The notes under the pieces were generated by a model, which saw only the letters and a program-made list of their open reading frames with translations, was not told the DNA's origin and made no database searches. A stretch of 64,000 nucleotides of DNA from Paramacrobiotus metropolitanus (lineage: Eukaryota > Tardigrada > Eutardigrada > Parachela > Macrobiotidae), in contig NW_026570226.1 of the NCBI RefSeq assembly GCF_019649055.1, positions 1,364,001 to 1,428,000 of the forward strand, in the 5' to 3' direction. Of the stretch, positions 16,801-51,053 are shown one piece after another. How positions within the stretch are numbered: the stretch's first letter is position 1; each line of letters begins with the position of its first letter. Position numbers and translations under genes: made by a program.

Positions 16801-18658
16801 GAGAACAGTTCGACTCCGATATAAAGCTACAAGAAGCAGGCCGTGCAAACAAATGAAGGTTTGATAATATTATGGCATCCGCGGAAAATTCTTACAAATT
16901 GCCCGTCAGTCATTCCTGTAAGATAATCGGCATATTAATTGTTTATTTTTTATAGAGCTTTTGACTTTAAATCAGCGAGTGGTTAGTTACCATTTTAGAA
17001 AATTCATAGACAATTTTGGTAGCCACTTTGTCACTTACCGAGGTTGTTTGCCGCTATCTACATACATAAAAAATTAATGCAATATAATATTAGTTTGTAC
17101 CGATTTACGATTGTACGAATATGTACGTCAATCTTTTTGCACGATACCATTTAGGTAGCACACCTTTGATGGTCGTATGATGTTGCGCATCTGCATTTTG
17201 TTTATTTCTGCGCGATGCTGCGCATCTGCATTTTGTTTATTTCTGCGCTAAACCTTATCATTAGAACCTCGGTTAACATACCGCGACCTACCAAAGCTCG
17301 TCTCACAATAGTAGCATTGGCAAGGATAACTATTACTGTGAAGAAGAAACACCGATGTAACCTGATACAAGCGTAATTACGATGTATTTAACTCACCCCG
17401 TGCAGATGTATTGGCGTCACGCAAGACATTATCCAGTTGTGTGGCTATGGAAGCGTTTCCGGTGGAAATCCGGGAAATATAAGAACTGCTAAACTGATTA
17501 TACAAATCAATCCGGGTGGCTCGTAAATAAAAAATAAAATTATCGCTTAACTCCAGATAAAACGGATCATCCTTATTAACGATAAGGTAGGTATGGGTGT
17601 AATTAAACAAATCCAGAAATCTAACAATAGCATTGCCGGTTGAAGTAGCGGTATATGTCGTGCGGATCAGATATCGGAAGTCAGATCGTGGCAGTCCAGT
17701 CCGGGCACTTAATCCAGGGCCGGGTACGGCAATGTGGATTTTCTTCTGAAATTCCGCTGCTTTGTAAATATCGAGAACGGCTTCCGTGCATCCTTGTCAA
17801 AACAAAACAATTGTTGTAAACAACAAAACTCATCTACGAAGACAATTCCATATTTCTGGACTTCAAAAAGCATAATTTATTATTTCCGGGTTTACAAGAC
17901 AGACTGCGCTACATAGCTTTCATTTGTCATACAGAAAACTAAAATAAATAGTTTACTTAATTCCAATACAATTACGTTATGATCATAATCATAGGCACGT
18001 TAACGTTCATCACAATTTAATATGCGTATCGCACTGTCAAACTTTGCAGATGCGCTTGTAAGTTGATCCATAAATAATGACTGACTTCCATTACATTTTT
18101 TATACAGTTTTTGCTAATAAGTAGTTGCCAAGCTTGAGACGTACGAGTATATCTGTACGTTGTCAGAAGCCGTTTTTCTGGTACTTTGGGAAGGGTTGCA
18201 CTGACATAAAGTACCCGTTAAACAAAAACGACAAAATGTTTTTTGCACTGACCCGGTCCAATATATACATCGCACACGACACCTTCCATAATCCATTCTA
18301 GAAACTGATTCAAAGCCGTATTTTTTGGAGCGCATGTCCCGCTGCTGCTTTTATGCAAGCGCACCATATGAAAACCGTTTGGCAAAATTAGCTTATTAGC
18401 GTGCTTCACAGCAATATCCAGTGCGGCAGCGATTCTGTCATAGTCGATGATAGAATTCCGGTTTCCAGCTTCGATAATTGTACAGACTGTTATATTATTC
18501 TGCGGCCGTGTTGATATAACATTTGACACCTCACACTTCCGAACGTCCCAGGCATACGTAGCGCAATTTCGTGATCCAAAATGAGCAAAAAATAAAGAAG
18601 CAGTGCACAGTTTAATTGCAATATTAACCTTCGCCGCGCACGACGTGATGTGCCGCAT
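10847..18658 (-). CDS. Receptor-type guanylate cyclase, copy 2
   Basis: Close paralogue of copy 1 with the same domain order. Key exons: leader and ectodomain start 18658-18253; about 17796-17397; small exons near 17330-17291, 17063-17039, 16916-16897 and 16830-16790; about 16535-16395; about 16318-16089; about 15840-15690; transmembrane exon about 15387-15285; kinase-homology exons near 15170-15064, 14240-14104, 13868-13690, 13617-13380 and 13313-13185; coiled-coil exon about 12660-12365; cyclase exons near 12293-12084, 12014-12001 (microexon GDAYM), 11845-11700, 11560-11515, 11330-11283, 11133-11043 and 10906-10847. Catalytic signatures [23 protein letters not shown] and INTASRMES are intact, so an active cyclase is expected. 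The ectodomain exon ending at 16089 appears to use a GC donor (GCAAGT). The last exon encodes [15 protein letters not shown] followed by TGA at 10847. Coordinates marked 'about' were not phase-checked. Confidence 0.9.
14886..15063. repeat. ATT-rich imperfect tandem repeat in an intron of copy 2
   Basis: Imperfect reiteration of blocks such as CGATATTATTA, CTGCATATTATTATTA and TACTTACCAT. The array directly abuts the kinase-homology exon ending near 15064. On the transcribed strand the blocks repeatedly recreate a GTAAGTAATAATA donor-like sequence downstream of the real donor. Confidence 0.85.
15957..16017. repeat. Short tandem duplication, period 36 bp
   Basis: A segment reading CTTTTTTATTCGAAATAAAT occurs twice, 36 bp apart, in the intron between two ectodomain exons of copy 2. 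AT-rich, with no coding content. Confidence 0.75.
17184..17253. repeat. Tandem duplication, period 35 bp
   Basis: Two adjacent copies of a 35-bp unit beginning TGCGCATCTGCATTTTG, in an intron between two small ectodomain exons of copy 2. The copies are nearly identical, so this looks like a recent local duplication. Confidence 0.85.
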
Positions 18659-20071: not shown

Positions 20072-23000
20072 CTATGGTGTAGGAGCAATCTCAGGCTGAG
20101 CAGACATGAGCCAGTAAGTTGTCATGAGTCCTTTTCCCTGCAAAAAATGCTTGAATTTAAGTCGCGTTACTTAACACATGACATATGGAAGTTTTTTTGA
20201 AAATTTTCTACTTTACATAGTTAACAGAAACTGAGTAAAAATAAACTCTTTCTGTGTTAAAACTCCTGCTGACTGGTGAATAAGACTAGACCAAAGGAGC
20301 GGCTTTCCTGGGTGACCAAATCGCCTAATTTTTAAAATTTATGTTTCGCAATTTTTATTATTCGAAGCGTTTTGTAGCAGCAGAGTAAATGCAATGTCCT
20401 ACCTTTATTTCAACCTGACCACGAATTTCTAGTCTGAACTCGGGGGATCCAAACAAAAGATCTTTGGTAGGCTGTGTTGTCTGTATTTTCATAGCTAAAC
20501 AAATTAATAAAGGGATACACTTCAACTAAAATTATTTATTACACTAATGCGCACTATAAACATATTTTGCTTTGAGGATGACGTCCATAAAAGTATTATC
20601 ATTGTCTTACGCTCTCCTGTCGATTCCATTCGGGAGGCTGTGTTAATAGAGTCCCCAAACCTGTAAAAGCACTGCTCAACAGCAATACTCATTTGTACAA
20701 TGTAAGTAATAAAAAATTAACAGTTTTATTCTGCATCATAACGGTGCACGTTCCGTTTTATGCTCATTGCAATCTTACAAACAATATCGCGGACAGTTTT
20801 ATTCTGCATCATAACGGTGCACGTTGCGTTTTATGCTCATTGCAATCTTACAAACAATATCGCGGAGCTTTAAGGCCAATAATGCCGGCAACGCATGAAC
20901 CTGCAACGTTAACGTTTCCAAAATGTATTAATTCGATATACATAATATTACGTTAATGTAACAGTATGAGTAAAATGTGAAATAAATTTAACAAAGAAAG
21001 TTAATGACGAAAATAAATTTAGCAAAGGCTCGTGCCAACGAAAAAAAAACTGAAGTTCCCGACAAAATTGTTTTGTTGCCAGTATATTAAATTTCAAATG
21101 GTTTGGTTAAATTTTGCTCTATAAAGTTAAGTTTACCTGAGTGCATTCCGCTCCGTATTCTGAGATGTTCAGATGGCTTTTGAGGAATTTTGATTTCTTC
21201 AATTCTGCGCAGTATCTCTATAGCAATGGCAGCCACTTCTTTGACATGAACAGTTCCGTTCCTTATGGGGAGTCCACTGGCTACCTGATGAAAGGTCAAT
21301 AGACTATGCCCAACTTGGCAACACAAAACTCTATCAAATAACCAGATAAATTCGATGAATTCCTTTCGAAGAATTTCCTTACCATATATGCATCACCTGT
21401 AAAAAATCACTACTACTGTTAACGTTTAAATAATCAGTATTACTGTTTTGGTTCACAGTAATTATATCTATTTTACTATGTAGTACTGTTAGACAATTTC
21501 TTTTCATTTACCAATTGTTTCCACTTTATAAGCATCGTGCTTTTCAACGATTTCGTCAAAGTGTGTGTAAAGGTCATTGAGTAGCGATATAACATCCATG
21601 GGCGTACCGGAAGCGGCGATGTTCGTAAAACCAACAATATCGCTAAAGTACACTGTTACCATCTCGAAAAATTCTGGATGTACCGATTCTCCCCTCACCA
21701 GACTAAGTGCGACTGCTCTGTGGTATTAAAATACAAACATCCAATATAAAACAAAAAATAAATGGCAGGTTTCGTTTCACGTACTTCGGTAGCATTTGAC
21801 CCAGAAGCTCTTCACTGCGTAGTTTTTCGTCCATAAACTGTTGCGTCTTGTAAGCCACTTGTTCTTCCAAATCGGATGCATATTTTTCCATGCGTTTCAG
21901 CAGATGATCAACCAGATTTCCCCCCGTAAAACCACTAATCCTTCGTATAGTTTCTTTGATTTTTTGGAACGTGGGTCGATTAATAGCAAATTCTGACCAG
22001 CAGTTCTCCATGAGAGCAAAAAGGTCAGCAGAACATGAAGCTCGAGGAACAGGTGGACGAATAGGCGGAGACGTGCATCGAGCTATCTGAAAGTACAATT
22101 AATAACCGTACCGCTAAACTTACCGCAGGCTACATGTAACAGGTGCTTTCCGATTAACCTCGGTTAAAAGCTCGAATGGTGCGTCGGTTAACTGAACGGT
22201 GTTTCCGGGAGATTCATAGGGACCGCAGCGCAAAATGATCTGCTGGAGAATAATGGCAAAACTGTACACGTCACCTTTCTATAAGAAAAACATGCCGCAT
22301 GCTCATATGATTTCTATCTCGTAACAATATTTACCGTAGTTTTAGTGATTAATCTTGAATGGATTATTCATTATTCTAGAATTACTTAAGTCTTTTGTTT
22401 CAGTTAATGGCTTTGGTAAGTTTTGATCAGACCGGATTCCTTCTGTTTCCAACCTGTGTTCCTCGAATGGGCATTTGCAGCTTAAGCAATTCAGGAGCCC
22501 TCCAAAATAACACACTATAATCTCGATCCTTCTGCTCCGCTCCCAGTGGAGCAACTTCTTTTGGGTCGTGTAATTTGGTTATACCGTAGTCCGCGACCTT
22601 TACCGACAACCGGCCATCGATTAAGCAGCTTAATGATGCCAGGTAACCGTGAGACTGGACTGGTGTGGCGTGCAGACAAAACATTCCCTAGTAAGAAATG
22701 ACCTTTTGGAGTTTCTACATCCATCAGCAAGTAGGCATGCCAGCCAACCCCTTATCAAACATTACTTCAGCAATGTCGCTAATCAAAGAATACTTGAATG
22801 ACCAGTCCATTTGCAAAGATCTTTGATCTAAAAGGTCATCCAAGCAGCCTTTTTGACAAAATTCGGCCATGATGTATACAACCCAGTTGATTTCATCCAG
22901 ACACAACCCGATAAAACGTTGTAAATTAGAATGTCTTATTGGCTGAATCTAAAACAATTCTTTCAAAATTGATTTGCACACTACGACTACAATAATTGTT

Positions 23001-26000
23001 ACTTAGGTATTATAAACCTATCAGTTCGTGCCTGATTCATTTGAGCAATAATATCAGGAGTAGGACGAAAGGTCTTATCTGCCACATCTTTGATACCAAT
23101 CGTTTGTCCTTGTAGTATGGCGCCTCTCCAAGCGGAGACAGAGTTGAAATAGGATGATTTTGTTATTTTAGAACCCTAAAAAGACCAGTTTTTACCATTA
23201 TTTTACAAGACATTGCATACGGTTTTGTGGTGTTAACACCTGCTAATTGATATGTTTCACATACTTGCGTTCCTGACATCATTTTGCTTTGTCCGTTGTT
23301 AACCGATGGTGCTCGGTCCAGTAAATCCAATTCGTGCACGCGATATCGCCACCAGTTTGGTTGCAGCACACCGCGGTTCTTCCTTTTAATGGAAAAATTA
23401 AATTGTCACTTGCCGCTGCTGCAACTTGCCGTTGTAACTTTACATGGTATAAAAAGTATAACTCACACAAGGAAATAATAAACCAATCCACCGATCGCTC
23501 CTCCACCCAACAGCAACACAAATATACTGACGATAGCAATGAGGGTCACATTTGGCGGCTCTGTATAATAAAATATGGATACACAAAAATGTTCGCATTA
23601 TGAAATTGTGACATAGGAACACTCGGTACGCTCATTTCTACAGGAGTCATCAGCAACTTCGTGTCTTTAACGTTGAATTCAAAATAAACGATTTTTGACA
23701 AACTAAATACAATGAACTTTACAATGAACACGTTTACCGATAACGCATCCTAAGCCAGTAAAGCCACATCTTGGCACATCTGGCGGAAATGCTCCATCCG
23801 TAGCTGGGGGCCAAAACGGTTTACCTATCGTCTCGATTTTGTTGCTGTCTGGATCCACTCTCAAAAATGGCTACATTATTATTTGGTTGCATTAGAACAG
23901 GTCTATTAAACTATTTGTGTTGTAGTTGTACTTTAAAACAGTAGTTAAACATGTTAACTTGCGCCACAAATTGCAAAGCGTAAAAAATTAATTCCATCTT
24001 CTAGTTACTAATAAATATTTTTGGCCCGAATAAATGCCTCGGCTCTGTATTTGCTACAATGAGAAATTAAGAAGATCACACATACGGTATAACACAATAT
24101 GAAGCAGCACGTACATTATGAGAATTTTGCGCTTCATTGAAAAATTTGACATCGTACAGGACTCTTCTGTCGCCGGAAGAAGAGATATTGATCACCGATT
24201 GCAGAGGAGTCACTACAGATGTATTTTTCATCCAGTTCAGCTGGTTTGTCACGTTAAAGATAGGCAGGTTTGCGTCGTAAAGCTGCTTGATGACAGTGCT
24301 AAATAAAATCACGGCATCATAATACCCCATCACGACCGGATCAACCTAAAAACGTTCAGAGATGGTGTAAGTATAATACATCACATACACCTCCAAAAAT
24401 TAAAACGTTTTATGGAAAACAGGAGTATATTGCTAAATTACTTGGTCAAAAATTCCGTAGCGGTAATTATATTTTTTCAGCGCAAGCTTTCGCACTGCTT
24501 GCTCAAAGTCCTCGAAGCTGTCTCCTTGGTATGTTCTCGCAATGGATATCAGAACAAGAGATTTAAATGCGTTCTTCACAATCTACAACAAAACTAAAAA
24601 TTATTTCAAGTTTTCTTAATTATGCTTAATTTAAAAAATATATAGATTCGGCACATGCATGCAGTCTACTGTATTTTAATTAACTTTATTCATACTTACC
24701 GGATCATATTCATCACCGCGTTCCCACGAAAACCGCCCTATAAACGGAAAAAAGATCTCATGCATTTTAGTGTAGGCATTAGACAAATAAAATTAATACC
24801 CCAAGATTTGCTGATGAACAGTTCAGCTCCAAAATAAACCTGAAATTTTAGATAAAATAACTTTTGTAATTTTTGCGGTAGAAGATTTGCGTGTAATGGT
24901 CGATGTAACAGAAACTGTTAAAACACCCATTTTACATATACTCACGTACTGTCCGTTTACCATTCCTAAATTGCGAACAGAAAATACATTAATGCTGAAC
25001 TGAAGTAAATAAAATTAAAAGCAAAAGCAAATCAAACTAATGTAACATCTTACCTAAACTGCTGGCTATTATCTAAAAAATGTCGCCGGTTAATATGACG
25101 CACATTAGTTGCTAACTTACTAAATTATAACGCGATTTTACCAAGATTTTTCTGACAGTATCCGCATTGACCAGCGTAACGATTACTGCAAAGTAAGAGG
25201 TAAACTAACCCCAGAAATTATACAGCTGAAGCATTGACGTATAATTTAAGAAACGTTTCCTTTGTACCTCGTGCGGAATCGTTGGCAGCTTTTAGGTTGT
25301 CTTTTATCTGAGAATCGAGCGACGTATTTCCGGAAATACTGCGAGAAATATACGACGAACTCATCTGGTTATATAGCTCTATGCGTTGTCCGCGGAGGAA
25401 ATAGAGAAAATTGTCGCCCAGTTCCGTATAGAAGGTATCGTCTTTGTCGATTATAAGATACGCATGGCTGTAATTGAAGGTATCCATGAATCGGACAATT
25501 GTTCTGCCGATAGAATTGGCAATATATGTAGTGCGAATAAGATACGGGAAGTCCGTCCGTGGAAGTCCAGTGCGAGCAGTTATACCAGGACCCGGTACGC
25601 CCATAACGATTCTTTCCTGATACTCTATCGCTTTATAAATATCCAGAAGTGCTTCGGTGCAGCCTATTAAAAATCAGGCAAACCTGCTATACGTATATAC
25701 ATACAAGCCCAGCGCGGATGAATATTGGCCGATGACTATTTAAAAATAAGTAATACCAAGGATGTAAGTATTGCTTTGCGGTCGCTTACAAACTGGCAAA
25801 ATATTAATAAACCCGTACGTATGTTTAGTACTTAATATTATCTATATTATGATACCACTTTACATAAGTTAATCGAAACACGGACTGTCTACTTGTACTG
25901 TACATACAGTACATAACTTGCAATGATGACTAACGTGATGATGACTAACTTGTTAAGTTACATGAATTTTTTACTTTGTATTGTACTCGTACTTATTGTT

Positions 26001-28968: not shown

Positions 28969-31900
28969 CTACGGTAATTCTCTGTTACTCGTAGGTGACT
29001 TTTGTATATGCACCACATTACGTATAACGTAAGTATTACAGCCTCGTATGCATACCTTTAAAAGCGTTTCTCCTCTTAGAATTATTTCAAACTCCGCATC
29101 AAGTAGATTCTTTGTCTCCAGCGTTATGTGAATACGCATAGCTGAAATATCCATATTACAGTGAATAAAACTAACAGCAGTGTTGCAACCCAACCGAATT
29201 ACTCACGTTCACCGGACGATTCCATCCGAGACGCTATTAACACCGTATCGCCGAACCTGTGATTAGCAAAAAAAATTTTGTCTATTATTAAGCGTAGTCG
29301 GACGGAAATTTGGCTCAGACTTTTATAGGACGAGTACATACAACTTACAAGCAATATCGCGGCATTTTTTGTCCCATAACACCTGCCACGCATGACCCTT
29401 CCCACAGAAAAATTCATTGGTTATGCACTGTCCAGAGCATATACAGTTTGATTAAAACTAAAAAAACCCAGCTAAATTTAGCCGTTTACAGCAAACCCAG
29501 TATTTGTAAGTTCAGGCAAATCGGAATAACAACGGAAAATAAATTTGCATTTACCTAACTCACTTTCCCATCTTTTGACCTTATACGATCTTATACGTAG
29601 TACAGAGTACAGACTTTATTTCTTACACTACGGATTCAAAATAATTTTCTAACAATAAGCTTCGTTAACAGACCTGAATGCAGTCCTACTCGAATTTGCA
29701 GCTTCTTATGAGGAAGATGTTTGATTTTGAACGTCGATATATTGTTTACGATGTCCATGGCCACCATAGCAATCTGTCCAGCATGCTTTTCACCATTACG
29801 CTCCGGTAATCCACTAACAATCTGAAAACGCCCAAAAAATACTAAATTCATGTTGTTTTTTCGTGGTGCAACTAGATTTTACGGTGTAATGCATACAAAA
29901 CTTCAGCAGTTGTAAGCGATAATCGAGCAGCCAAAATTGCAAGCGTCAGTTTTTATTTGTATTAATGTGTAGAAATTCTAAAAATTAGAACATGGGCATT
30001 ACCATATAGGCATCCCCAATGGTTTCCACTTTATAAGCATCATAATTTAGTAGAACTGAATCAAAAAGTGTGTATAATCCGTTTAACAGGTTAACCACAT
30101 CCATTGCGCTTCCCTGCGCGGAGATAGTTGTAAATCCCACGATATCACTGAAGAAAATTGTTACCATATCAAAATATTCTGGCTCCACAATTTCGCCTTT
30201 CGTTAATGCTGCCGCCACTGACCTAATACAAAAACATTTTATCCTTACATTTACTCAAAATTACGCTATTAACTATGGTATGGACATGTATATGAAATTA
30301 AGTAGTTAGTAGGAGCAAATTTCAATTCCGTACTTTGGAAGCAGCTGACAGAGCAATTCCTCTGTTTTTTCCTTTTCGGTCAGAAATTGCTGCGTCTGTT
30401 GCGCCACTTTGGATTCCAGACTATTGGCATAATTTTCCATTTCCTTTATGAGGTGATCAATGATGTTTTCTCCCATATTACCAGCGGTTATCTTAACACT
30501 TTCGCGTAATTTGGAAAAAGTTGGACGATCACTTGGATATTCTGCCCAACAACGATGTAGCAAGGCTAGCAAATCTCCAGGGCATGCTGACGGCGGAATG
30601 ATAGGCCGGAAAGGTGGAGTACAACCGTCTTTTATCTTCATAATTGACAAGCGTTATTACTAGTCTGTACATGCTTATTATTAGGTACATAACTGTTCAT
30701 CCCCTGTGTTAAATATTTCATTTAATAAGTAATACTCGTATCCAACCTTCAAAACAATGTCTTTCGCAGATATCAGCCAGGAAAGCTGCGCTAACGATTT
30801 CGGATTACTCTGCTCCTCCTGATTATCGTCTCCGGGCGGTTCAAAAGGAGCCGTTTGTAAAATAATTTGCGACATAATGATTGCAAAGCTGTAAATATCC
30901 CCTGCAATTAAAATTTCACATATTATAAAGTACTATATCCTATGATCCTTTAGCCATCTGATTTTATGGCATTTGAACGGTTTTTGCACCAAAGGAATTA
31001 TAGTCTGTCACGTTATGCGCTTTTTTAACCCGAAAAAACATTAATTTTTATTTAACTTCTACATAAATATTGATGTGGCGCATATTTCTTATCACTATAA
31101 TATAATAAAGCGTGATATGACTGGCTCACTACTACTTTAGTGCTTAGAGTTAGGTAGCGTCCAAAAAATTACTTAATAAAGTTACCTTTCTTTTCCGTTC
31201 GCGTGCAACATAATAAAATAACAGTGTTAAAAAGAAAATCCCCATTGCAGAGAAAAAAAGTTTGTGGAAACCGGCAGATTCTGACCTGCGTTCCATATTT
31301 TGGCATAGGTTCCCTTAACAATTCTGGAGCTCGCCACAGCAACTGTTTGAAGTTTCTCGTTGTTTCTGATTCCTCCGGAGGTGAATACTCCCAAAATTCA
31401 TGCAAAAGACTAAGTCCATAATCCGTAACTCTGACTACAAAACGGCTGTCCACTAAGCATGAAAGGGCACCCAAAAAGCCGTGTGATTCCAGAAAAGAGA
31501 CATGGAGAAAGGTCATTCCCTAAAATTGTATGCGTACCTATATGCATTTTTTCAAAAAATAAATGACCTGCCTATATCTGTATGTTATACCTCACAGATG
31601 TCTTTCATAAGCGAATATTTGAACGACCAGTCCAACTTCAATGATTCACTCTCCAGAACATCCTCTAAAGTGCCACGCGAGCAGAACTCCCCACAGCGGT
31701 ACACGCACCAGTTGCGCTCATCAACAACGATTCCAACAAATCTATGGAGGTTGGTGTGCCGTAGAGGTTCAACCTAACAAAACCCAGGAAATTACCTTTA
31801 TTGTATGGAACTGCGGAAAGTGTGATTTGTAACAAGATACCAAATTCATTTGTTTGATCAGGTCCTTGGTGACATGAAACTGCTTCTCTGGAAGCGCGGT

Positions 31901-34900
31901 AGCACTTATATCGTTGTTTTTATATGTCAACATGATAAATGTGCTGAAGGCTGATTTCTGGCCTTCGGTTTCACTGTCGGAGAGATCTCCCTGGAATCCG
32001 GAAGAATTAACTATACTCAAACGAGTATAAAAGCAAACGATACACTTTATAATAATACAGTTTTGAGCTAGGTAGAAATACTTAAAAAGCAATACTTAAA
32101 ACGTTAAAAGAAAAACCAACCCTAGGTTTTCTTGTCACAGTGTCATCTATGTACCGTATTTCCGATTAACATTAAAATATAATGTAAGCTGTAAAGAAGC
32201 AATACAAATACAAACTAATAATAAGTACCTTACCATGGATCGTTCACTGCGCCGAAGACTGGAGTAACTTTTTCCACGACTGGCAATGACTACATCCGAC
32301 TCACTGATTCTCCACCAAAGAGGGTCAATTTCGTGGTGGCGCCTTCTGTAACACGACCACAGTATAATCGCTGATATTTAAAAATCTGATTTTATACGGG
32401 ACTACCCGGGTAGGGGCATGCGAACACCGAAAAGTTTTTCCCTTATGTCGGTCGCCCTGCAGAAAATGATACCTGTAGAGCACTGCAGCAGAAACCCCGG
32501 TTATCAATACCAGAAGACACAGAACTAATGCCGCAACGTTTCCAGGAACGGAAAGTGGAGCAACTAGATTCAATAAAAGAAAGTGATCAGTCAGAGCCTA
32601 TCGTCTAGCTACTGTCGCCTGTTTCGAACTCCTAAATTCGTTTTTACCGGCTCTGCATAATTCTCCATTGAATCCACAGCGGGGTTGGTTGGGAGGTAGT
32701 CGACACGTGTACGACTGACCATCTGGACAAATCCAGTTAATTGGCGATAACACACGCACTCTCCCATATTCTATCTTGACTGCAAGCTGTGTAAAAAACA
32801 GGATGTGTCTCTACCGTCGCAACTGTAGTCTGTCGTACAATTTCCTGTGATTAAGTTATGTAAACAACGTTCATACTTTGAAAACTTCCTCGTCCAGATC
32901 AAATGACTTTATAGCATAGAGAACCCTTCGATCGCCGTAGAAGTTCATGGTGATATTTTCTCCATACGGTGTTGTATACGTAACATTCTTCATTTTAGAC
33001 AAAAGCAGATGAGTTTGCGTATAGTTCCCACCTTGACTGTACACGGATCGCACGGCATGTGCATATAAAATAAAAGCATCGTAGTAACTCGTCGCTATCG
33101 GATCAACCTGCAATAAAACTCAAAATAATACATTTGTCAACAGCGCAAACGCAGTACATAACGAGTAATTCGGTATTTAAATTGAACGCATAACTCCAAG
33201 CTTTAACTTACGTTTTCGAACGGGCGGTATGCATACTGGTTCAAAGATTTAGACGTTTTCCTGACAACTCTTTCGAATTCGGCTGCATTATGGTCGTTTG
33301 ATTCGTAAAGCGAGAATATGACCAACGATTTGTACGCTTCTTTGGCGATCTGGTTAAAAAATTTAAGCCATTCAATAGGGACAATCAAATGACAACGATG
33401 CAAAATTAAGCCGTATACGGTGATTGACACTTGTTGTTATAGAGGTAAGTAGGTACTAAGAGGTAAGAGTTGGTTATAGAGGTAAGTAAGCATTTAAATA
33501 TGCCACATGGAGTTTTACTAAAACTCACTCGATCGAATTGATCGTCAAGATCAAAACGAAATGTGCCCCAAACTTCACTTTGATACAGTTCAATGGCAAT
33601 ATAGACCTAATGCAATAATATAAACAATGTCAGGAATTTTATGTAATTAGAATACGAATGGGCTCATTATCATTGCTCTCATTGCAACTATCATTGGGAA
33701 TTATCATTGCTCTCATTGCAACAACTTACGTGCTCTCCCAGGATCATGTTCAACTGTGCCGCAACGATCTGGTTAAGCCAAAACATTGTATTAAACTGAC
33801 GCTGTTAACCGTGCATACTGTACCTTGGCGCCTCATGCTTTGCGCCAACACCGATGTTGTGCTGCTTACCAGACAATCTCGAGTGAATTTTGCGGCACCA
33901 AAAAGAAGAATCACTGCCAAGTACAAAAACAAAAGATTTTAATTCGATAAGTATTTCTGGTAGTATTTGATAAAGAAAAATACTGCATTAAGAAATCCAT
34001 CTTGTAAAACAACAATTTTAAAAAAATCTTTTGTCAGGTTGAATAACCAAACGTTTTCATGACAAACCTTCAATCTCATACAGAAAGTAAACCATAATAA
34101 TTATTATACTGAAGAAACAAGTCACGACAGATACTGTCAAAATATCGCCACTTTAGTGACATTACGTTGTTTATATTTCTGGGACGATGCTATCGTGAAT
34201 TTTGAACACCTGCTATTTTCCCATAATTTAACCTGCAGTGGAGCACCGAGTTCACAAGGGTGAACAACATACACATGTACCTCTGGTGCTATGGTTGGCG
34301 TTTATCAGAGCCTGCCGGCAAGTGGATCGGTAACTTTCGTCTTCTGCATCCGCTCTCATAAATTCCCAAACAGACCGAATCTGTCCGCTGGTAAATCCTC
34401 GCAAATAAACCCGTAGTTTCTCGCCCAACGTCCCATAAAAGATACTGGCCGTATCCACGAACACCGCAATATCGGTGTAGTTTTGATATTGGTACAGCAG
34501 CGTAACGATAATGCTGCAGATATCCGGCAGGGTGAAGGATGTACGTATTAAATACGGCAGATCTTTCCGCTCCGCACCTAGTGCATCCACGATATTCGGA
34601 GCCGGACAGGCAATCAACGGAACATTCTGGTCGGCAGCGATAGCATAAATATCCGCGGCCGCATCATCACATCCTAAAAAATTAAAGCGGAAATTAACCT
34701 ATTCTTGCACGTGCAACAATTAAGAAAGCCGATCGATCATAAAATTTTAACTACTTACAATTTTTACTTAAATTTTTTACCATTTTAAAACGCTTATCAA
34801 ACAAGAGTTTTATTCAGTTTTTGTTAATTAATATTTTTCATACCTGGACCGATATAAACATCGCAAGTGATATTGGCTACATACAGTTCCATGATGCTTT

Positions 34901-35318
34901 TGAAAGCATCATTGCGTGCGGAGCAAGTCGACCCGGCTTTTCGGTAGTGCAGCTGGAGCTTGATCCCGGGTGGTAATATTCCATTGTTGGCTTCGTTGAT
35001 TCCCACATGAACCGCCGCACGGATTTTCTCAAAGTTCACAATGTTGTCTGTGCCGTCGGATTCCACAATGGAACACACATGAATGGTAATATTCTCCGAT
35101 TTACTAATTCGGATGCGTGAGTTACTCCGGCTGCTCACAGGTGTAACCACTTGGGCACCGGAAGCGGAGGTTAAGCCGCTTTTATTGAACAAGGTGGCGA
35201 TGAGCAGTTGTCCTGTGGTCAGTGTGATAAGCAAAAGTGCATGCAGCATTCTGTTGTGCGGTAACTGGAACTGGATGGGTTTGCATAATAGCGAAATGTG
35301 GAACCATTCAAGGATCAC
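28969..35318 (-). CDS. Divergent receptor-type guanylate cyclase, copy 4 (possibly inactive)
   Basis: Same domain order as copies 1-3 but much diverged. The first exon runs about 35318-34848; an internal Met at 35249 ([20 protein letters not shown]) is a better signal-peptide start. Then ectodomain exons about 34672-34272, 33915-33870, 33775-33729, 33609-33530, 33350-33208, 33107-32881 and 32788-32650; membrane helix about 32565-32480; kinase-homology exons within 32330-30750, including LLWRAPELL; coiled coil about 30640-30332; cyclase exons about 30222-30003, 29820-29680, 29400-29345, 29262-29211 and 29155-29060. Metal-binding motifs FSDIVGFT and VETIGDAYM remain, but the motif that is INTASRMES in copies 1-3 reads VLIASRMES, losing the conserved Asn. 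No last exon like [10 protein letters not shown] was found; reading through gives a stop at 28969. Several introns present in copies 1-3 are absent. Exon ends are approximate. Confidence 0.82.
33666..33722. repeat. Short direct repeat, period 34 bp, in a copy 4 intron
   Basis: A 23-bp unit beginning ATTATCATTGCTCTCATTGC occurs at 33666 and 33700, within the roughly 120-bp intron between two ectodomain exons of copy 4. Confidence 0.75.
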
Positions 35319-36229
35319 TCGTCACCTGCTTGTTGTAATGATCGAACAACATCCAGTTCGTTTTCAGCCGAAAAGTTAAAATAGGTAGCATGGTCAGAAA
35401 TCGTCAGTATTGTTGTTCTGGTGTGCTTAGGCTTACCGCTTAGGCTTACCGGTTAGCTAACATTAAGTCAAAGTGCATTCGCCAGCACAGGCTGCATAGC
35501 TGTGAATATCAATGACAAATGAACAGTTCCAAATACACCTTTGCAAAAGTCGCTCTAACCATAAGTAGTACCTGGGTATTAGTTTCCCTTAAACAAACAA
35601 CTACGTTTGGAGTAACGTCTGGTTCAGTTCTGCAAATCATACAATCCGCGCTAGTGCCGCGTACGAAGGAAGTAAGTACCAATGATTCCGGCGATGCTTT
35701 TGGAGAAGCGCCATGGATTTCATCTTGCAAATGGTTCAATAAAATTTGGAATCCTCATCTTTGCGTAAACCATAAAACAAAAAATCAATTAAATAAGTAT
35801 TATAAGACTTTGTAGCTGTATTTATATAAATTGCGAAACGTTTTCAACTCGTTTGGTCAGTTTGGCCCCCATCCATCCTGCTGCTTCTGCGTAAAAAAGC
35901 AGTCTTCCACGGATACCGGTATTCATTACAACGACGGCAAACGATTTATGATAATAATATACGGAAGTATACTCGTACTTCACAATACTTTGCAAATTTA
36001 GTAAACCCCATCCAGTAATAACTGCAAATAATTTATCGATTCGTTATGGTACATACATATTACAGTTTGCGCAGTACTCGTGGTTTGCATACACAGTTTG
36101 CCATAAACCAGAAACTGTAGTTTTCTGCAGTTCCTGAAAAGTCAAAATTAAGGAAAAGTTATAAATGAGAAATAAATTAAACACATGCGGTTGTATAAGG
36201 ATCAGGCATGCAAGATCATTTATCTGCAG
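35319..36229. other. Intergenic region between copy 4 and the 237-aa gene
   Basis: About 0.9 kb with overlapping ORFs on both strands around 35509-35815, neither recognised nor splice-supported. It presumably holds the copy 4 promoter and the 3' UTR of the minus-strand gene at 36230. Confidence 0.5.
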
Positions 36230-37450
36230 CTATATTTGCTCGTTTAAGGGATTTCTGCCCATTTCCGGTCCAGAGTTAGCGCTGTTAACATCCAGTTGGC
36301 GCTGGCCATCGTCAGTGCTCTCCTGCTGCCGATCGTTACGATCCACCTCCACCGTTGCCCGAACTTCACCGACTTCCGGTCGCTCTTGGTGACGAGCTTG
36401 TTCAATGACTGGATTAATATTACTCGGATCAGCTGGGACGTTCTTAGTAATTTTATCCAAAATATCTTGCTCCTTCTGGTCCAGTTCGGCCTCTTTTTCC
36501 ATATGCTTAATTTCGACAGATTCCCCCGGTTTAACTTCGGGGACGGTTTTCGGGTCGGGAAATCCGATTTCTTTAGGACTTCCAATATCTATTTCCTTTT
36601 TCTCCCCTTGGTAATGTCCCGGTTGGACTTCTGGTGGACCCTTTGTCCCTGTTAGAGCAAAAATTAATTATTCTGTGGAACTGGTAACCCGAGCGCATGA
36701 GTAGGTAGTAAGGTTACTATTGTCGCCGACATACGTTAAATTACGTTTTATGACGATTTACCCGTTTATTTCACAATAAGCACACCAACTATTCTCACAC
36801 GAGTCAAATATCTATGGTTTAATTAGTATTTCTACAATCTACGAACGGGACTGTTTTTTGGGAAAGAAACGAAATTTACTGAAATATACAGATATTCCAA
36901 CATTTCCAGCTAATATTTCTACAATATAAATTCAGCCCTTGTGTTGAATAAACAAATAAATCAAAATATAATCACACCGAGAAACGTTAAAAATCGCACA
37001 CGACGATAAAAATCGCACTGACACACGACAAAATGCGCTTACAGCGCCCGCTTACCTGGCAGTTCCACTTCTCGTGGGGTGTTAACCTGGAATTCCTTCG
37101 GAACTTTTGGTGTGATTTCTGGAATTTTGGATGCTTCAGCCAACCCTTCGCCAGCTGCATGGCTAGCATCAGCGACACCCGCTTCCATCACAGTCCTGGA
37201 AACCATACCCACACTTTCCGTTGACTGCATTGTCAAGCCACTTTCCTCCACGGCCGTCGTGCGTATCATACGCACGGCTGTGGAAAGAACATTCTCGCCC
37301 TCTTCGGCTAAAAGGGTCCTACAACATTGTGGCTACTATCTCTTCGTAGTTCCCAATCAGTGCATTTATGTACTACGGATCAACATTTCTCAGATCGCTA
37401 CCAGCTTTGAAGACTTACTTGGCTACCACGGTGGCTGCTCGAAGTGCCAT
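36230..37450 (-). CDS. Hydrophilic, cysteine-free 237-aa protein with mitochondrial-like N-terminus
   Basis: Three exons, 37450-37419, 37318-37056 and 36648-36230, join in frame at consensus splice sites (714 nt including stop), so this is a real gene rather than a chance ORF. The N-terminus MALRAATVVAK is basic, lacks acids and looks like a mitochondrial presequence. Residues about 12-75 are Ala/Glu/Thr-rich and predicted helical (SRTVMEAGVADASHAAGEG). The rest is rich in Pro, Glu, Lys, Asp and Gln (PEVKPGESVEIKHMEKEAEL), with no Cys or Trp and very few aromatic residues, as in intrinsically disordered proteins. I do not recognise the family. The composition and leader resemble LEA-type or mitochondrial abundant heat-soluble proteins of tardigrades, a hypothesis only. 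The neighbours are unrelated genes. Confidence 0.75.
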
Positions 37451-39374
37451 AGCACAGAAATAGTGATCACGATTTGGGATTTTGGAGTAAGTCTAACTTC
37501 AACTGCACTGTCGAAGATATTTTGTGGAATCAGTACGCACTCAGCAACGTGGAATAAAAGTTCAGCAGATCAGTTGTAGCACTGCGACACGACAAATATC
37601 CCGTATAATCAATAATGCTGTGTTTTTATTAAAAACTTCACAAGGTAACAAAATGCTGGAGAAGTAAAGACCAAGTAAAAGTTTAGTAAGCTGGAACCAA
37701 CTGCAGTGAAAGCAATGTACAAATATTCTCTAAACACAACGCAACACTGTCGAAATGATCATCTATTATCAGTAAAGCTCGAATACAACTAGTTTTCCGA
37801 ATAAGAATACGAGAACATTATAATCAGAAAAAACATTTAAGCAATAAGTTTATTCGCGGTATCGGTCTTTAATACCACAAAACAGGCAGATACAAACAAT
37901 AACAACGGAACAGCTGATGTCAATGGCAGGATTTGTGGGAAATTCCTGCAGCGTTGGTACTGTACTTTACAAGGGAACTTTCGTAGGGGGTGTTCAGTGT
38001 TCACCACTTTTGTTTCGCAGTTTTTGCTGTCGTGTCACGAGCGTTACCAATGAAATCGGCACGCCTTCAGTTTTAATTTATGACTATGGTAGTCTGTAAC
38101 GCGTCATCTTATTAAATTTATAGAAACTGATCATTCTATAGATGCTAGTACTTCGTACGTATTCTTTTTTTTAAAAATGTAATGATTCTAATGCCTATTT
38201 ATTCTGCTGGATTTCTCAAACGGAATGCCAATACATGTCGCACCTTCAGGAATGCTTATAAACATTTTATTGACGCAGTACAACATTAATAATAATTATA
38301 GGGATACATTACAGCTCAAAAGTACTGATGTTAGTCCAAATCAGCGGAAGCATACACATAATACCATATTAATATCATCGTTGTTTTCTTGGATGCATAC
38401 GACTATGAGTACTGTTTCGATTATGTTATTCCATTTTGAATGTAAGGAAAAATAATTAAAATTATACAAAATTTGTTTCACTTAAATGTGGAAGAAAAAC
38501 AAAACCTTCGTGCCGGTGGACGATAGTAATAATTAACAGCTTAACCGGTAAAGATGTTAGAGCGCTGGTAAGCTCCTCCACAAACAGACCAGAATCGTTA
38601 CCACAAGATTGCGGATGACGATTTTAGCCGTCGACTTTGGCGTTTAGCAGGCTAACAATGACTGACAGTATCCTTGTTTTTTATTGGCGGGAAAGGATGT
38701 ATAACTCGATCAGGATGACTATTGGGCAGAAGGGTTATATGCCCTATTAACTACGAGAATACACATTAGTGCCCATACAACTTCGTAGTCATCACGTTTA
38801 TGCCGTACTTCTCCAAATTATGTCTCTGGACTCTGATATAGGTACTGTACTGCAATACAGTAAGTATTGTAAGTGCCATAGTCCATGCGAGTAAAAGTAC
38901 CATGTAATGTGCAAACTGTATGTACAATACTACGTACTCACAGTCAGCGCAGTGCAATCACCAGACGGCTTTATTATCAACTATTTTCCCTGGATGAGCT
39001 GGATCCGGACTTCCGCCCGGTCGTGAATTTTTGTGCGCGCTATATCATATTCCCGCATATTAGCTAATTTTTGAAATATTTACTGCTATATTACGTTACA
39101 GCTTATTATGTGATACAGGTAGTATCCATCCATTTCTCGAAAGTACCTCTACTACTTCGTATAGATATTTACATATATGTGACTTGCTCCTGGTGCTTCG
39201 AAGCATTGAAAATTTGACCTTCTATATTTCATATCTTTAAACCAGTAAAGCAACGTATACTAAAGTGCTAATTTTATACATCTTCACAATAAGATCGTAT
39301 TCGGCTATGCTGTACACATCGATGTAAATACAGCACTTCCTGTTCCTGTGCATGCGGAATAACTCGTTACAAAA
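37451..39374. other. Intergenic region upstream of two divergent genes
   Basis: About 1.9 kb between the divergently transcribed 237-aa gene and the SLC5 gene, so it probably contains both promoters. Short ORFs (for example 37917-38099 and 38766-38957) have no recognised homology. No RNA gene or repeat was seen. Confidence 0.6.
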
Positions 39375-42300
39375 ATGACCTCCATGCATCAACACATTCG
39401 GGGTTCACTTTTACACTGGACGGATGTTGTTGTTATTACCGGCTATTTCGTGTTGGTTCTGGCTGTCGGGATTTGGGTACGTACAAAACAAAAGTAAATT
39501 AAACAGAAACAGGCACGCGCAAAATTCTTCTGGTTTGGATTACAGGTATAAACTCCACTAACATGGCATTATGTATCATTTATTACGAGTCGATCATTAT
39601 CAAGTATTACGAGTCTGTTGCAGCGCGTTCGAGCTGAACAAGTTGCGTCCGGTCACATTGAACAAATACAAAGGAAATCCATAACATTAGGAAAACGGGT
39701 TTATGGGCACTTTGTTTTCGTAGTCCTCTCGGCAAACGGTCAGATCTGGATCCATATCCAATTATTTCCTGGCCGGAAGGAGTATGAACTTTGTACTGGT
39801 GAGCTTGAAAACAATTTCGCTGTAGCAAGTGGAAGTAAACTGACACGTTTTCACAGTTCCGAAACAGCATTAACCGCTGCGATGTATTCCGAAACAGTTG
39901 CAATGACAATGTTGTATCCTTAATGACAATGTTGTTTAATGCTGTATCCTTAGCTTGATCGCGTTTCAAAATGCAGGTGGGAACTTCTCTTTTTGCCTCT
40001 AACATTGGATCTGGTCACTTCATAGGACTCGGTATTGCCTGCTATTTTACCGTACAATTCTCTGGATCAGAATTTAAAAAATAAGATACTGGTGCTTGAT
40101 AAAATTGACGTTTAACTGAGAGGCTTTCTAGCTGGGAGCGGCGCTGCTACGGGAATCGGGATAGCGGCCTTTGAGCTTAATGTAAGCACCTTCGCAGTCC
40201 TTCCGTGAGTCTGCTGGTTGCACCTAATATTCATGACCCGCACCGACTGTGTAACCTTCGTTGTTCTGTGGTTGCGTGCATGTGACCTTTGTCATATGGG
40301 ATAGCCACACGCCCATCTGGCATGCTGTCTCAATTTCAGGCTGTTTTTATAACATTACTCCTGGGATGGATTTTTGTGCCGGTCTACATTGCTGCGGGGG
40401 TATGCGGTGCTTTTCGCAGGGAATTTTGCGTGATAACTCTAGATCACATCGGGCGGAAAATCTGTTCATTCACAGATTTACACGATGCCAGAGTATTTGC
40501 AAAAGCGTTACGGTGGTCAACGGATTCGGATATACTTATCGCTTCTCACGCTCTTCCTCTATGTATTTACGAAGATCTCGGTACAGTAAATGAACTAAGG
40601 ATCATCTTATTTTAAATCAGCACTTACTGTGCTGATTCAAAATAATCATTTGTGCACTCTCTTATAATTATGATTACATTAGTTGCATAACTTCATCTCG
40701 GCATAAATCCATATGGCTGTCTATTCATATTGTACAATTGTATAATACTGTAGCAAGAATAAGCATAGGGAATCGAATCACGGTATTTGTATTGTACATG
40801 TACGGCTTGTGAACGCAAAATTTCAAAATAAGTACTTGATATCATAATATCCGAATATGACCCGGAGAAAAAAGATTACAGTTTGGAACATAACAGTTAT
40901 TATTAGCCAACTACTGCACAAAAACATCTGTTTGCAAACTGCGTGCTAGACGGAATCTACATTTTCCAGGCTGATTTATTTGCGGGAGCCATTTTTATTG
41001 AACAGTCGCTACAGTGGGATTTATACTTGAGTGCAGCCGTTCTGCTGTTCATTGCGGCATTTTTTACGATAACAGGTGTGTAATGACGGGTTTTTTTTAA
41101 AGCATTTCGTCCTGTTTGTACTTCTTGTGCACATTGTGACAACACGAACTTATTTATTGAGAAGAACGTCCGGTTTCAGAATTTTCTGATATCAAGAACA
41201 TGAATTGCGTTGGTCGTTTCAGGTGGTTTAAGTGCGGTAATATGGACGGATTTTGTGCAGTGTGTTATTAGTAAGAAAGAGTCGGAATTTATTATTGTTA
41301 TTTAAAGATCCCGTATTTGGCGCGAATTAAACTTAACCTTTTTTCCCACTTACACTTATAGTGTTGGCTGGAGCTATGTCACTTTTAGTCGTTGTAATGG
41401 TAAAAGTCGGCGGCTACCAATCTCTGATCTCTCAGTTCCCTCTGGTTAAGCCCACGGAAATCTGGCCTAACCGAACTGAGTGTACGCACGTTCCCAAAAA
41501 TTTCCTGCATTTATTACGGGATGCACAGGATACTGAACTGCCGTGGCCAGGAATAGTATTTGGACTGTCTATATCATCCATTTGGTAAATTACCGAAATT
41601 GTCTAAGATATTGTCGAATGACACTATGTAGGCTAGTTGCATGTGAACGTATGAATTCCGAAATTTATTACCCAACAGTTGTTGCTTTAAATAAATTTGT
41701 TAATTTTATAACGCGGGGCCATATGGGCGCCACGCGTATCCTCTACAGCGAACAGCGTGAACCCGGATGAGGCTTTATTGCCGAATCTAATGCGCACCGT
41801 GGCGCAGCAACACCAAAACTAATGAGGAAGGATCCTGCAGCCAGTGCAACTGTGCTGCAGGTCCGTCAAAACAGCGCAGCAATGTGCGGGGGGGAAATCC
41901 CCAGAAACAGCGAATAGCTACTCAGGAGGGCGGGGCGTCCCGCCCTTACACCCCTTTTGCAGGCATCGCTACGTCCTCGGAGCGAAATCTCCCAGGATTC
42001 GGAGGATCCGCACCCCCCCGCCGGTTCGGCTCATGTTGGGTTCCGGGTCAGTTCGGTCCGGTTCGGGCGGTTAATCCGGTCGGCTCGGTTCCAGTTTGGT
42101 CGGCTCAAATCCGGTTCGGCTCAGGTTGGGTTCCGGGTCAGGTCGGCTCCGGTTCGGTCCGAGTCAACCGTCTGGGTCAACGCACTGTCGCGCCAGATCC
42201 AGGGTCCAACCCGGAAACGGGTGAATTCCGTAGTTTCTTCCAGCAAAGGAAAGGTCACGTTCTGGGGAAATTTGGGCAGGGTTTGGGGTCTATGTGGCCC

Positions 42301-45300
42301 GTGACCCTGCAAAAAAACAAAGCACGCAAATCCGCGGTGAAATCCACTGCTCCGTCCGGGGGGATGTCGCCGTCCCAGGAAGTTCGGGCAGTGTTTTGGT
42401 GGGGAATTCTTCGGCGTGGTGCTGGTGGTCGATCCGTGCCGTTGGGATCGGAGTTGGTGCTGCTGTTGGCGGTGTATCCGTTATGGTTTCCCGCTGGTCC
42501 GGGTCGCGTTCGCCGTCGGCATCGCAGGAGGCAATTCTCGCTCCACGGCATCGCAGGAGGTGTTTCTCGCTCCGCGGCATCTCCGTCCAGTTTGGGAGGC
42601 ATGTCGTCGCGGGGAGGCGTCCATCTCCGTCAGTTGGGAGAGGAATCCGTCACGTTCCGCGAGAATGGGGGGGCGTTTGTAGCTCCACACCCAGGGGTTA
42701 AATTGGCTCAAATAATCAGAGGAGCCGTGCGCGCGGGCAGCGTGCACGGCCTGGCTCGTAACCAACGATCTGCTACCATATAACGCGGGGCCATATGGGC
42801 GCCACGCGTATCCTCTACAGCGAACAGCGTGAACCCGGATGAGGCTTTATTGCCGAATCTAATGCGCACCGTGGCGCAGCAACACCAAAACTAATGAGGA
42901 AGGATCCTGCAGCCAGTGCAACTGTGCTGCAGGTCCGTCAAAACAGCGCAGCAATGTGCGGGGGGGGGGAAATCCCCAGAAACAGCGAATAGCTACTCAG
43001 GAGGGCGGGGCGTCCCGCCCTTACAATTTCATTTTTCCGTCTTTCCGCTAAATAATTCCAACTGACTTGGTACAATTAAACATGTTTCTGTTTCATAAAT
43101 AGGTATTGGTGTTCCGATCAAGTTATTGTCCAGCGTGTTTTAGCCAGCAAAAACTTTTCTCACGCCAAAGCGTCATGTGTAGTCGCCGGCTATCTAAAAC
43201 TGCTGCCCATGTTTTTCATGGTATTCCCAGGAATGGCGGCACGGGTGCTCTTTCCAGGTGAGCAATAACGTACTGATAACATCAATAAATTATTCTGTCC
43301 AAAAAATTAAAAAAATCTCAGTACCACTATCATTGCTCATCACTATACCGGAATTTTTAAACCGCTAATCATGTTCTTTTCTACAGACGAAGTAGCTTGC
43401 GTAAATCCTGACGTCTGCGAACGCGTGTGCGGATCCAGATTAGGATGCACCAATATAGCCTATCCAAAGATCGTATTGGAGCTGATGCCGCAAGGTAGCT
43501 TTGCTCGCATTTCGTTCCACAATTCCACAGCTCCACGTAAATCGCTTTTTAAATGCAGGTTTAAGAGGATTAATGCTAGCGGTTATGATGGCGGCATTGA
43601 TGAGCTCTTTAACCTCCATTTTTAACAGCAGCTCCACCATATTCACAATCGATATATGGAAAAGTTGCCGCCAGACGGCTTCGGAAACCGAGTTGGTTAT
43701 CGTTGGAAGGCAAGCAGTAGTATTACGTAGATACACATTCATAAACGAAATATTATAACAACTTTAAGTGGACGTAGAAGTGATTCTCTTTGTATATTGT
43801 AGACGTTTCTAGCAAATTCAAATACTGCATAAAATTAATAATTAATATATTAGACCTTGTGTGTGCTTGCAGAATAGTAACCGGAGTCATGATTTTGGTG
43901 TCCTTTCTGTGGGTATGGTCAGTTAAATTGTGCAAACATTTGAGTTCGTTGCGGCATACATAAATCATATTTCCTATGGTGGTTAAAGTTTTTACCTGTC
44001 TATCGAGTTTTTCATCAGGTGCCAATCATAAAAGCCACACAAGGATCTCAGCTCATGCACTATATTCAATCCATCACTTCCTACTTGGCGCCTCCGATTG
44101 CCGCGGTATACTTCCTTGGCGTATTTACCACAAGAATCAACGAGAAAGTAATTATAAATACCTGAAAATAGGCTCAAAAAGCTAATATCCCAATTCTTGT
44201 GGCAGGGGGCATTCTGGGGTTTGATAGTTGGACTCATGTTAGGAATTGTTCGTTTTATTTTGGAATTTTTCGTATATCCGAGCGTGCCATGTGGGGAAAT
44301 TGACCGGCGTCCGAGCATAATTAAAGATATCCATTATCTGCATTTTGGATTAATTTTGTTTCTGTTGTGCGTTTGCGTTATTGTTTCGGTCAGTCTTCTC
44401 ACAGAATCGCCGGACCAAAGACCGGTACGTACGTATGTATAAAAAAGAAGTAACATGCCATGCATCACGTTGCTCAATGGTCAGTAGTGTATCGCATGAA
44501 TCAGGTTTTTGTCAAACTGCACAAAATGTACATGGCAGAATAAAAAGTTTCTTATAAAACTATAGTATACATTTAGGCAGCGTTCAAATATTACGTAACG
44601 GCCATGGGTGGGGGGGTGGTCTAACAAAAGTGTTACGCTTTGTTACATGGGGTAGGGGGTCCAAAAATTTTTGTTAAGTGCGGGCCGACACCCCATAAAA
44701 AAATTTTAAAAAATAATATATTTTAATTACATTTTTATAGGGGGTGGTCGGACTTTTCGTTACGTATGCAGCTGGGGGGTCGAAAATTTTGTTATGTGGT
44801 GTTACAAGGGGTGGGGGGTGGTCGAAAATCACGAAAAATTGCGTTACGTAATATTTGAACGCTGCCTTACTGTTTTCATCTTATTCGATCATGGGTTGTA
44901 CAGTTGTACTACAAAGTCTACAATTATTACATCAATTTTTACGTATAATGTAGCCGCTCTTTGAAGACTATCGGGAATCGGAAGCAATAATTCCGTTCTG
45001 TTGTGATATGTATCAGATTTCGCTTCCGGACTAGACAGTTGGCGCGTTAATTACATATTTTATTTCCAATACCCGAAAATCAGCTGATCTGATTTCGTAA
45101 TTTAGCTCGCCCGTGTGACGTTCATGACCCGGCACAACCCCGTCAGTAAGCGTTATGAGGCGGACGATATGGACCCCAATCCACACGATAAAACTGACAT
45201 GGATATGCTGGAAACACAAGGTAGAGGTAACATCCTCAACGGAGTATACGTCCTTGTAAACAATCCAGGAAAATAATAATTTATTCGTCTACTCTGCAAT

Positions 45301-49599: not shown

Positions 49600-51053
49600 A
49601 TGGCCAAATCTGTTAGTCCTGCTTCGGCCGTGTCTTTGTCAGAAAAAGGTACTTTACGTTTTTTACTCCGACTAGAAAGTACTGTTTGAGTTTATTTTGA
49701 AATTAGATGCCAAGACACTTTCTATCAATTGGACGGATTCTGCTTGGGTTCCCCATCTCTCGGCCGCTAATGTCATGGACTACTTTGCGCAAATGTCTAA
49801 CCCGTTCTACGATCCTCTCTGCAACAACGAGCAGATTCGGATGCAGCGGTTGGGGCTAGAAAATCTTAAGTGAGAGGAATAAGTGAAATAAGGTTATGGA
49901 GTGACTGAGAAAAAGTTTCGCATCTATACGCGTACTCGTGCTCTTTTAATGCAGTCGTTATCGTTGACTATGAGTCTATGAGGATCAACTCTTGTTTTAG
50001 CAACTCCACCGGCTACCTGGTATTAGTGCTCGCGGCCGTAAATAAAATAGAAAGTTGATCTTCCGGGTATCTGATTTTATCTTATCCACGAGCGAATGCA
50101 TCTGCTGTTCTGTTGTTAGGAATATGGTGGGAACCGAGTTCGTATTGGCTTACTCTCAGGAGCCAATTTTGTACATCATTAAAAAACAAGAAAGAAAGTC
50201 TCCCGTTGAAGGTACGAGCCAGATTATTACTTACACAGCAGATAGACACATCTGCTTTGTATGAATTTTTCCGGTCGATTATCGGCCACGGTTTCGATTA
50301 CTATCTAATACAGCAATATTTTTAAATACAGTTGATGTCGCCGTATGCTGTGAAACACAATTCTGTTTGGCGAAATGCTGTAATGCTTTTTATTTACAAT
50401 TTACTGCGTTGTGTGGTGCTGGGCTTATTTATTTTTGATTTGTTTAGTTTTTGTTTATTTATTTGATTTATGAGAAATCCGTGCTTAGGTCATATTGATT
50501 GAGTTCAGTCTTTCACAGCGATGTTTTGTATCTCATATCTATATTAGTGTTTTAAAATTTTCTAGTGCACCCCATTGCCGTATACTACATTCTGGCCGGT
50601 ACCGTTTATCAAGCCCCCGACCTTTGGTCCGTTGTCAATTCGCGATTGCTCAACACCGCGCATTATCTTCACACAGCAGCCGCTGAAATGAGCAACTTCG
50701 TGCGCTACCATCCGTCCAGCGGTTATTACTGGGATATCCGACATCCGGGCAGTGATTCCACGCGGCATCCCGACAGAATCTCTTTCGTGCCCATTGATCC
50801 CACTCGGAAGACTGCGGAAGAGTCGGGTACGGTGTTTCAGAGAAAGAATGTGGACGGTTTGCTCGGTGCCTTGTCCCAGAAGTTTCCACCTAAACCCATG
50901 CCGAATACGCCGCATCCCTATGGCCCACGATTACCACGGGAGCCGGTGCAGCCGGGTAATCCCGCTGGCGCAGTGGAAGCTGTTCCCGCTATTGATCAGA
51001 AGACTGATAATTTAGCAAAAGATTCATCTGATCAAGCGAAATCTTTGAAATAG
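49600..51053 (+). CDS. MED6: Mediator complex subunit 6 (263 aa)
   Basis: Head-module subunit of Mediator, linking transcription factors to RNA polymerase II in the nucleus. Exons 49600-49648, 49707-49869, 50120-50211 and 50566-51053, phase-consistent (792 nt). Signatures: LSINWTDSAWVPHL and MDYFAQMSNPFYD in exon 2, then MVGTEFVLAYSQEPILYIIKK in exons 2-3, and HPIAVYYILAGTVYQAPDL, SRLLNTAHYL and RYHPSSGYYWD in exon 4, followed by FQRKNVDGLL and QKFPPKP. The C-terminal tail after residue about 200 is Pro-rich and divergent, as is usual in this family. Length is near the family norm of about 250 aa. Confidence 0.95.

Follow-up and report, generated by a model that had tools for sequence, protein, structure and literature searches.

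A spliced gene for a hydrophilic, largely disordered 237-residue protein of the tardigrade Paramacrobiotus metropolitanus, probably the MAHS gene of this species

The 64,000-nt stretch of DNA analysed here (the window; positions 1364001–1428000 of contig 6 in the 169.8-Mb, 533-contig genome of Paramacrobiotus metropolitanus) carries a three-exon gene that is probably the single, already reported MAHS gene of this species, with MAHS represented in the comparison by its published description only. The original prediction of a mitochondrial, desiccation-type, hydrophilic and disordered protein is probably right about the kind of protein, being consistent with the composition of the 237-aa product and with the anhydrobiotic tardigrade host. 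Its second part, which presented the protein as a candidate new one without a place in a known family, most likely fails; 'new' is probably wrong because one MAHS protein of P. metropolitanus has already been published and the 237-aa protein fits the MAHS plan by description. The coordinates of the gene and of neighbouring features are listed in Table 1.

The three exons lie on the minus strand and join in frame to give a spliced product of 237 aa. Translation starts at the first in-frame ATG after an upstream stop, with 14 sense codons between them and the start context GCTATGG. Re-splicing gave 237 codons and near-consensus sequences at both donor sites, as expected from the initial claim that the frame closes over three exons with good splice sites. 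The gene model is well supported at the sequence level; the accompanying statement that the product 'is real' went beyond what such data support. To define the longest spliced frame in the region 36000–37700, we applied a fixed rule (ATG start, GT[AG]AG donor, [CT]AG acceptor, introns of 50–600 nt, at most two introns). The longest frame on the minus strand comprised 237 aa, the same length as the three-exon model, and was reached by none of 200 dinucleotide shuffles (mean 80 aa, maximum 146 aa). Under the same rule, the plus strand yielded a spliced frame of 191 aa, likewise longer than those of all 200 shuffles.

Codon composition was scored over exons 2 and 3 and intron 2 with a measure that was trained on 1466 codons, own-genome LEA-like frames among them, and that leans on amino-acid make-up. 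The modelled frames were the best of six in exon 2 (+0.197) and exon 3 (+0.159), all six antisense frames of these exons were negative (-0.09 to -0.28), and intron 2 contained stops and scored below zero in all six frames. When only synonymous codon choice was scored, the modelled frames were not singled out, another minus-strand frame (with stops) being higher in each exon. Within 700 nt downstream, variant poly(A) hexamers were present but none of the canonical forms (AATAAA or ATTAAA). An open frame of 185 aa on the plus strand (37022–37579) lies opposite exons 1 and 2 and the intron between them. Its codon score over exon 2 is negative, so that it probably results from the coding strand as a by-product. 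An exon-by-exon search of the genome at E up to 10 returned self-matches only and thus one copy. This single-copy result is weak and a paralogue may have been missed, because the search was conducted exon by exon and the published assembly has a BUSCO completeness of 72.9% (PMC11191345).

Table 1. Location of the 237-aa gene, of segments of its product and of neighbouring features (positions within the window).
Feature	Position	Strand	Remarks
Exon 1	37419..37450	minus	32 nt; ATG, first 10 codons and 2 nt
Intron 1	37319..37418	minus	100 nt, GT-AG; AA|GTAAGT...TTGTAG|G
Exon 2	37056..37318	minus	263 nt; remainder of Ala/Glu/Val-rich N-terminal part, up to first base of codon 99
Intron 2	36649..37055	minus	407 nt, GT-AG; AG|GTAAGC...CTAACAG|G
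Exon 3	36230..36648	minus	419 nt including stop TAG; Pro/Glu/Lys/Gln-rich hydrophilic C-terminal part
Acid-free leader, exon 2 portion	37306..37318	minus	last part of codon 11 through residue 15 (remainder in exon 1); possibly a short helix for mitochondrial targeting
Residues 14–31	37258..37311	minus	18-residue window of highest helical moment in the protein (muH 0.61)
Residues 150–167	36443..36496	minus	18-residue predicted helix, top model confidence (block pLDDT 75–76); candidate for the 18-mer MAHS motif
ANF-receptor matches	7387–7818, 17380–17796, 25221–25673	minus	Pfam, just below cut-off
Kinase-like match	2296–3066	minus	Pfam, above cut-off
Kinase-like matches	21706–22098, 30309–30653, 31172–31519	minus	Pfam, just below cut-off
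Cyclase match	12067–12423	minus	Pfam, above cut-off
Sodium:solute symporter exon	43311–43622	plus	Pfam, above cut-off; ordinary conserved gene, other side of 237-aa gene
Mediator subunit MED6 exon	50556–51050	plus	Pfam, above cut-off; ordinary conserved gene, other side of 237-aa gene

The translated protein (25.8 kDa, pI 4.7) contains no Cys or Trp and is rich in Glu (32 residues), Pro (19), Lys (15) and Gln (13), matching the composition initially described. Its GRAVY value is -0.73 as a whole and -0.93 for residues 37–237. The N-terminus is basic and acid-free, as had been noted, but the acid-free stretch extends over 15 residues instead of the 11 quoted; it carries R4 and K11 (net charge +2) and is followed by EEGE at positions 16–19. 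Among 20,000 same-letter shuffles, 3.4% had an N-terminus without acidic and with at least two basic residues in positions 2–15. Being seven residues apart, R4 and K11 would lie on one helix face, and the muH of residues 2–14 (0.51) is attained by 2.9% of same-letter shuffles. The putative mitochondrial leader is short and only moderately convincing, and mitochondrial import of the protein appears plausible.

The disorder anticipated for the remainder was borne out by FoldIndex, whose windows were positive up to residues 51–101 and negative from 61–111 to the C-terminal end. The predicted plan comprises about 80 less-disordered N-terminal residues, followed by about 150 disordered ones. A weak AlphaFold2 model, generated from the single sequence with no alignment (mean pLDDT 54), contained helices alone (residues 2–16, 20–37, 47–57, 150–167 and 173–185, the first at low confidence) and no strands. 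The helical moment of residues 14–31 was reached in 0.06% of shuffles of these letters and by the best window in 6% of 500 whole-protein shuffles, the latter being the fairer control because the segment had been chosen as the best window. The predicted helix 150–167 is located at 63–70% of the protein length; its muH of 0.378 (8.6% of shuffles) and that of residues 153–170 (0.489; 1.2%) are modestly above those of shuffled sequences.

CAHS, SAHS, MAHS and LEAM are all listed for P. metropolitanus (PMC9224920), and the number of MAHS genes is given as one, both for Paramacrobiotus (PMC10799326) and for P. metropolitanus, with exons of 0.1–0.4 kb and introns of 0.1–1.2 kb (PMC13006486). In the description by Tanaka et al. 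(PMC4326354), MAHS is unique to tardigrades, targeted to mitochondria, heat-soluble and hydrophilic, lacks a LEA motif and has a conserved, partly helical and potentially amphipathic middle region. According to PMC7640644, about 100 more ordered N-terminal residues are followed by about 150 disordered C-terminal ones, and an 18-mer amphipathic-helix motif is present. The Ramazzottius protein is characterized by a GRAVY of -0.77 in its mature form, a 'long' targeting peptide and seven predicted strand regions (PMC4326354); it is reported to be heat-soluble, to localize to mitochondria in human cells and to improve the osmotic tolerance of these cells (PMC4326354). Expression of MAHS in human stem cells is described as improving their survival under stress and as linked to lower ATP.

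By description, the 237-aa protein resembles MAHS in its tardigrade origin, the one copy found, size class, hydrophilicity (-0.73 as a whole or -0.93 for residues 37–237, as against -0.77) and lack of a known domain. A more ordered, helix-prone N-terminal part and a long disordered C-terminal part are shared as well, FoldIndex changing sign between windows 51–101 and 61–111. The predicted helix 150–167 has the length of the 18-mer motif and is a candidate for it. Both introns and exons 2 and 3 have sizes in or near the published ranges, whereas exon 1 is below the reported 0.10-kb minimum. Further differences concern the leader, which is acid-free for 15 residues and acidic from residue 16, in contrast to the 'long' targeting peptide of Ramazzottius MAHS, and the seven strand regions predicted for that protein, as compared to none in the weak model obtained here. 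In addition, the helix of MAHS is placed in the middle, whereas the candidate here lies somewhat further towards the C-terminus and the most amphipathic window is found at residues 14–31 instead. According to PMC5531438, the MAHS annotation was wrong in both of the species studied, the gene having been fused with a neighbouring one; an open frame on the same strand (34827..35321), which lies within 1 kb on the 3' side of the stop codon of the 237-aa gene, is compatible with this history, but the correspondence is weak. CAHS and SAHS are likewise heat-soluble protectants of the same animals, as proposed for the 237-aa protein, but are described differently, CAHS as cytosolic with motifs of its own and SAHS as secreted with an FABP-like fold (PMC7640644). 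A lipocalin/FABP search of the genome for SAHS gave three matches, the best of which matches ordinary FABPs among the best 60 of 246 rows. A DM-domain search gave five matches, two of them on contig 5 at 2.135 and 2.163 Mb and hence within the part of scaffold 5 (1.96–2.37 Mb) to which PMC11191345 assigns DMRT paralogs of P. metropolitanus.

Like MAHS, the 237-aa protein lacked a LEA motif and any match outside tardigrades in the collections searched (Pfam, NCBIfam, PDB and GTDB). Pfam returned no match at E up to 10, NCBIfam a single chance row with 13.3 bits (E 0.081), where the cut-off is 230, and PDB no match by sequence or by fold, so that an unrelated folded family, which had been named as evidence against the prediction, did not emerge. 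In GTDB genomes, 114 stretches fitted a pattern and none was confirmed by tblastn. The missing matches in Pfam, PDB and GTDB are as expected if the family is restricted to tardigrades. Six peptides of the protein had no occurrence in any of 5.39 million papers searched, and Rfam gave no match on the whole window at gathering scores.

For comparison with LEA proteins, the control set consisted of five separate LEA-like open frames from this genome, located at LEA_4 matches (six rows, two of them in one frame), none of which exceeds the LEA_4 family cut-off. The number of 11-mers with a score of 7 or more out of 9 was 3, 14, 6, 13 and 5 in these frames (shuffle means 0.4–1.8); all five exceeded their own shuffles, at most 0.7% of 300 shuffles matching each of them. 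In the 237-aa protein a single 11-mer reaches this score; the shuffle mean is 0.62, and 46% of the shuffled sequences do as well. With the 11-mer count at shuffle level, the protein is unlike a group 3 LEA protein. It was unmatched by LEA_4 (PF02987) at E up to 10, and phmmer gave E values of 0.11 or worse against the five frames. Membership in group 3 was rejected on the grounds of the profile and 11-mer results, and the likeness to LEA proteins seen initially did not hold. Two of the control frames (L007 and L008 of L004–L008) have a hydrophobic, signal-peptide-like stretch before the repeats and possibly encode secreted LEA proteins.

Several other readings of the locus were weighed. The broad plan of the protein could be common to many unrelated hydrophilic proteins. 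Its likeness to MAHS was judged by description, which, together with the short leader and a model without strands, leaves some room for a different protein that has yet to be described, likewise disordered, mitochondrial and single-copy, of the ATPM1 sort or a second MAHS-like one, with the true MAHS gene elsewhere in the genome. MAHS is not the sole tardigrade-unique mitochondrial protein, since two of six such Ramazzottius candidates tested were mitochondrial according to PMC4326354. ATPM1 (LC002823) is both tardigrade-unique and mitochondrial, as proposed for the 237-aa protein, although this likeness, too, was judged by description. We nevertheless regard a separate protein as unlikely. 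The protein shows the specific MAHS plan (helical N-terminal part, disordered C-terminal part, internal 18-residue helix and no LEA repeats), and ATPM1 is described as not heat-soluble (PMC4326354), whereas the composition observed here suggests heat solubility. Less probable still is a cytosolic or nuclear, Hero-like disordered shielding protein that has no mitochondrial role and acquired its short leader by chance. Strong predicted disorder, a pI of 4.7 and acidic residues from position 16 would suit such a protein, and a start of this kind does arise at the shuffle frequency given above; the shared helix face of R4 and K11, the amphipathicity of residues 2–14 and, at low confidence, the N-terminal AlphaFold2 helix argue against it.

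The two remaining readings are far more remote. LEAM, the mitochondrial group 3 LEA protein listed for P. metropolitanus (PMC9224920), would account for a hydrophilic, helix-prone and mitochondrial product (RvLEAM and group 3 LEA proteins share the first two properties, LEAM itself the third), but the lack of a profile match and of 11-mer repeats above shuffles, as well as the phmmer result, already contradict this identity, which we consider highly improbable. It is equally hard to believe that the locus holds no gene, either because the spliced frame arose by chance or because the true product is encoded on the plus strand. The 185-aa and 191-aa antisense frames, the uninformative synonymous score and the lack of a nearby canonical poly(A) hexamer speak for this view; the near-consensus donors and the negative codon scores of all antisense frames in exons 2 and 3 oppose it, and a chance frame was rejected given that no shuffle was as long as the modelled one.

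If the protein is indeed MAHS, a basic amphipathic N-terminal helix would direct its import into mitochondria, where the very hydrophilic, Pro/Glu/Lys-rich remainder would stay disordered and soluble in the matrix. Upon water loss, amphipathic segments may turn helical and coat proteins and inner membranes, which would protect them from aggregation, fusion and phase change. The MAHS identity, the import and the shielding step are all inferred. As MAHS, the locus would provide a gene model for a Paramacrobiotus member of the family, together with a map of its leader, N-terminal helices, disordered body and 18-residue helix, and comparison with Ramazzottius MAHS would reveal the segments kept under selection. 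Otherwise, it would add one further mitochondrial protectant; as a separate protein it would stand beside MAHS and LEAM, so that this tardigrade would have no fewer than three unrelated proteins protecting its mitochondria during drying.

The surroundings of the gene were scanned with Pfam, using 40 of the 82 frames of at least 100 aa in the window. Repeated receptor-guanylyl-cyclase-like pieces on the minus strand (2296–31519) suggest that membrane guanylyl cyclases are arrayed in tandem next to the 237-aa gene; of the eight matches, six fall slightly short of the Pfam cut-off. A 330-codon open frame on the plus strand (41791–42780), in G+C-rich surroundings (50% at 42001–44000), remained unmatched in Pfam at E up to 0.01. 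HSP70 matches were found in plus-strand frames between 58852 and 60924, the last of these frames being closest to cytosolic HSP70 chains of PDB. Just 3' of the HSP70 exon, a segment of 108 nt is present as a perfect 2.0-copy tandem duplication (60947–61163).
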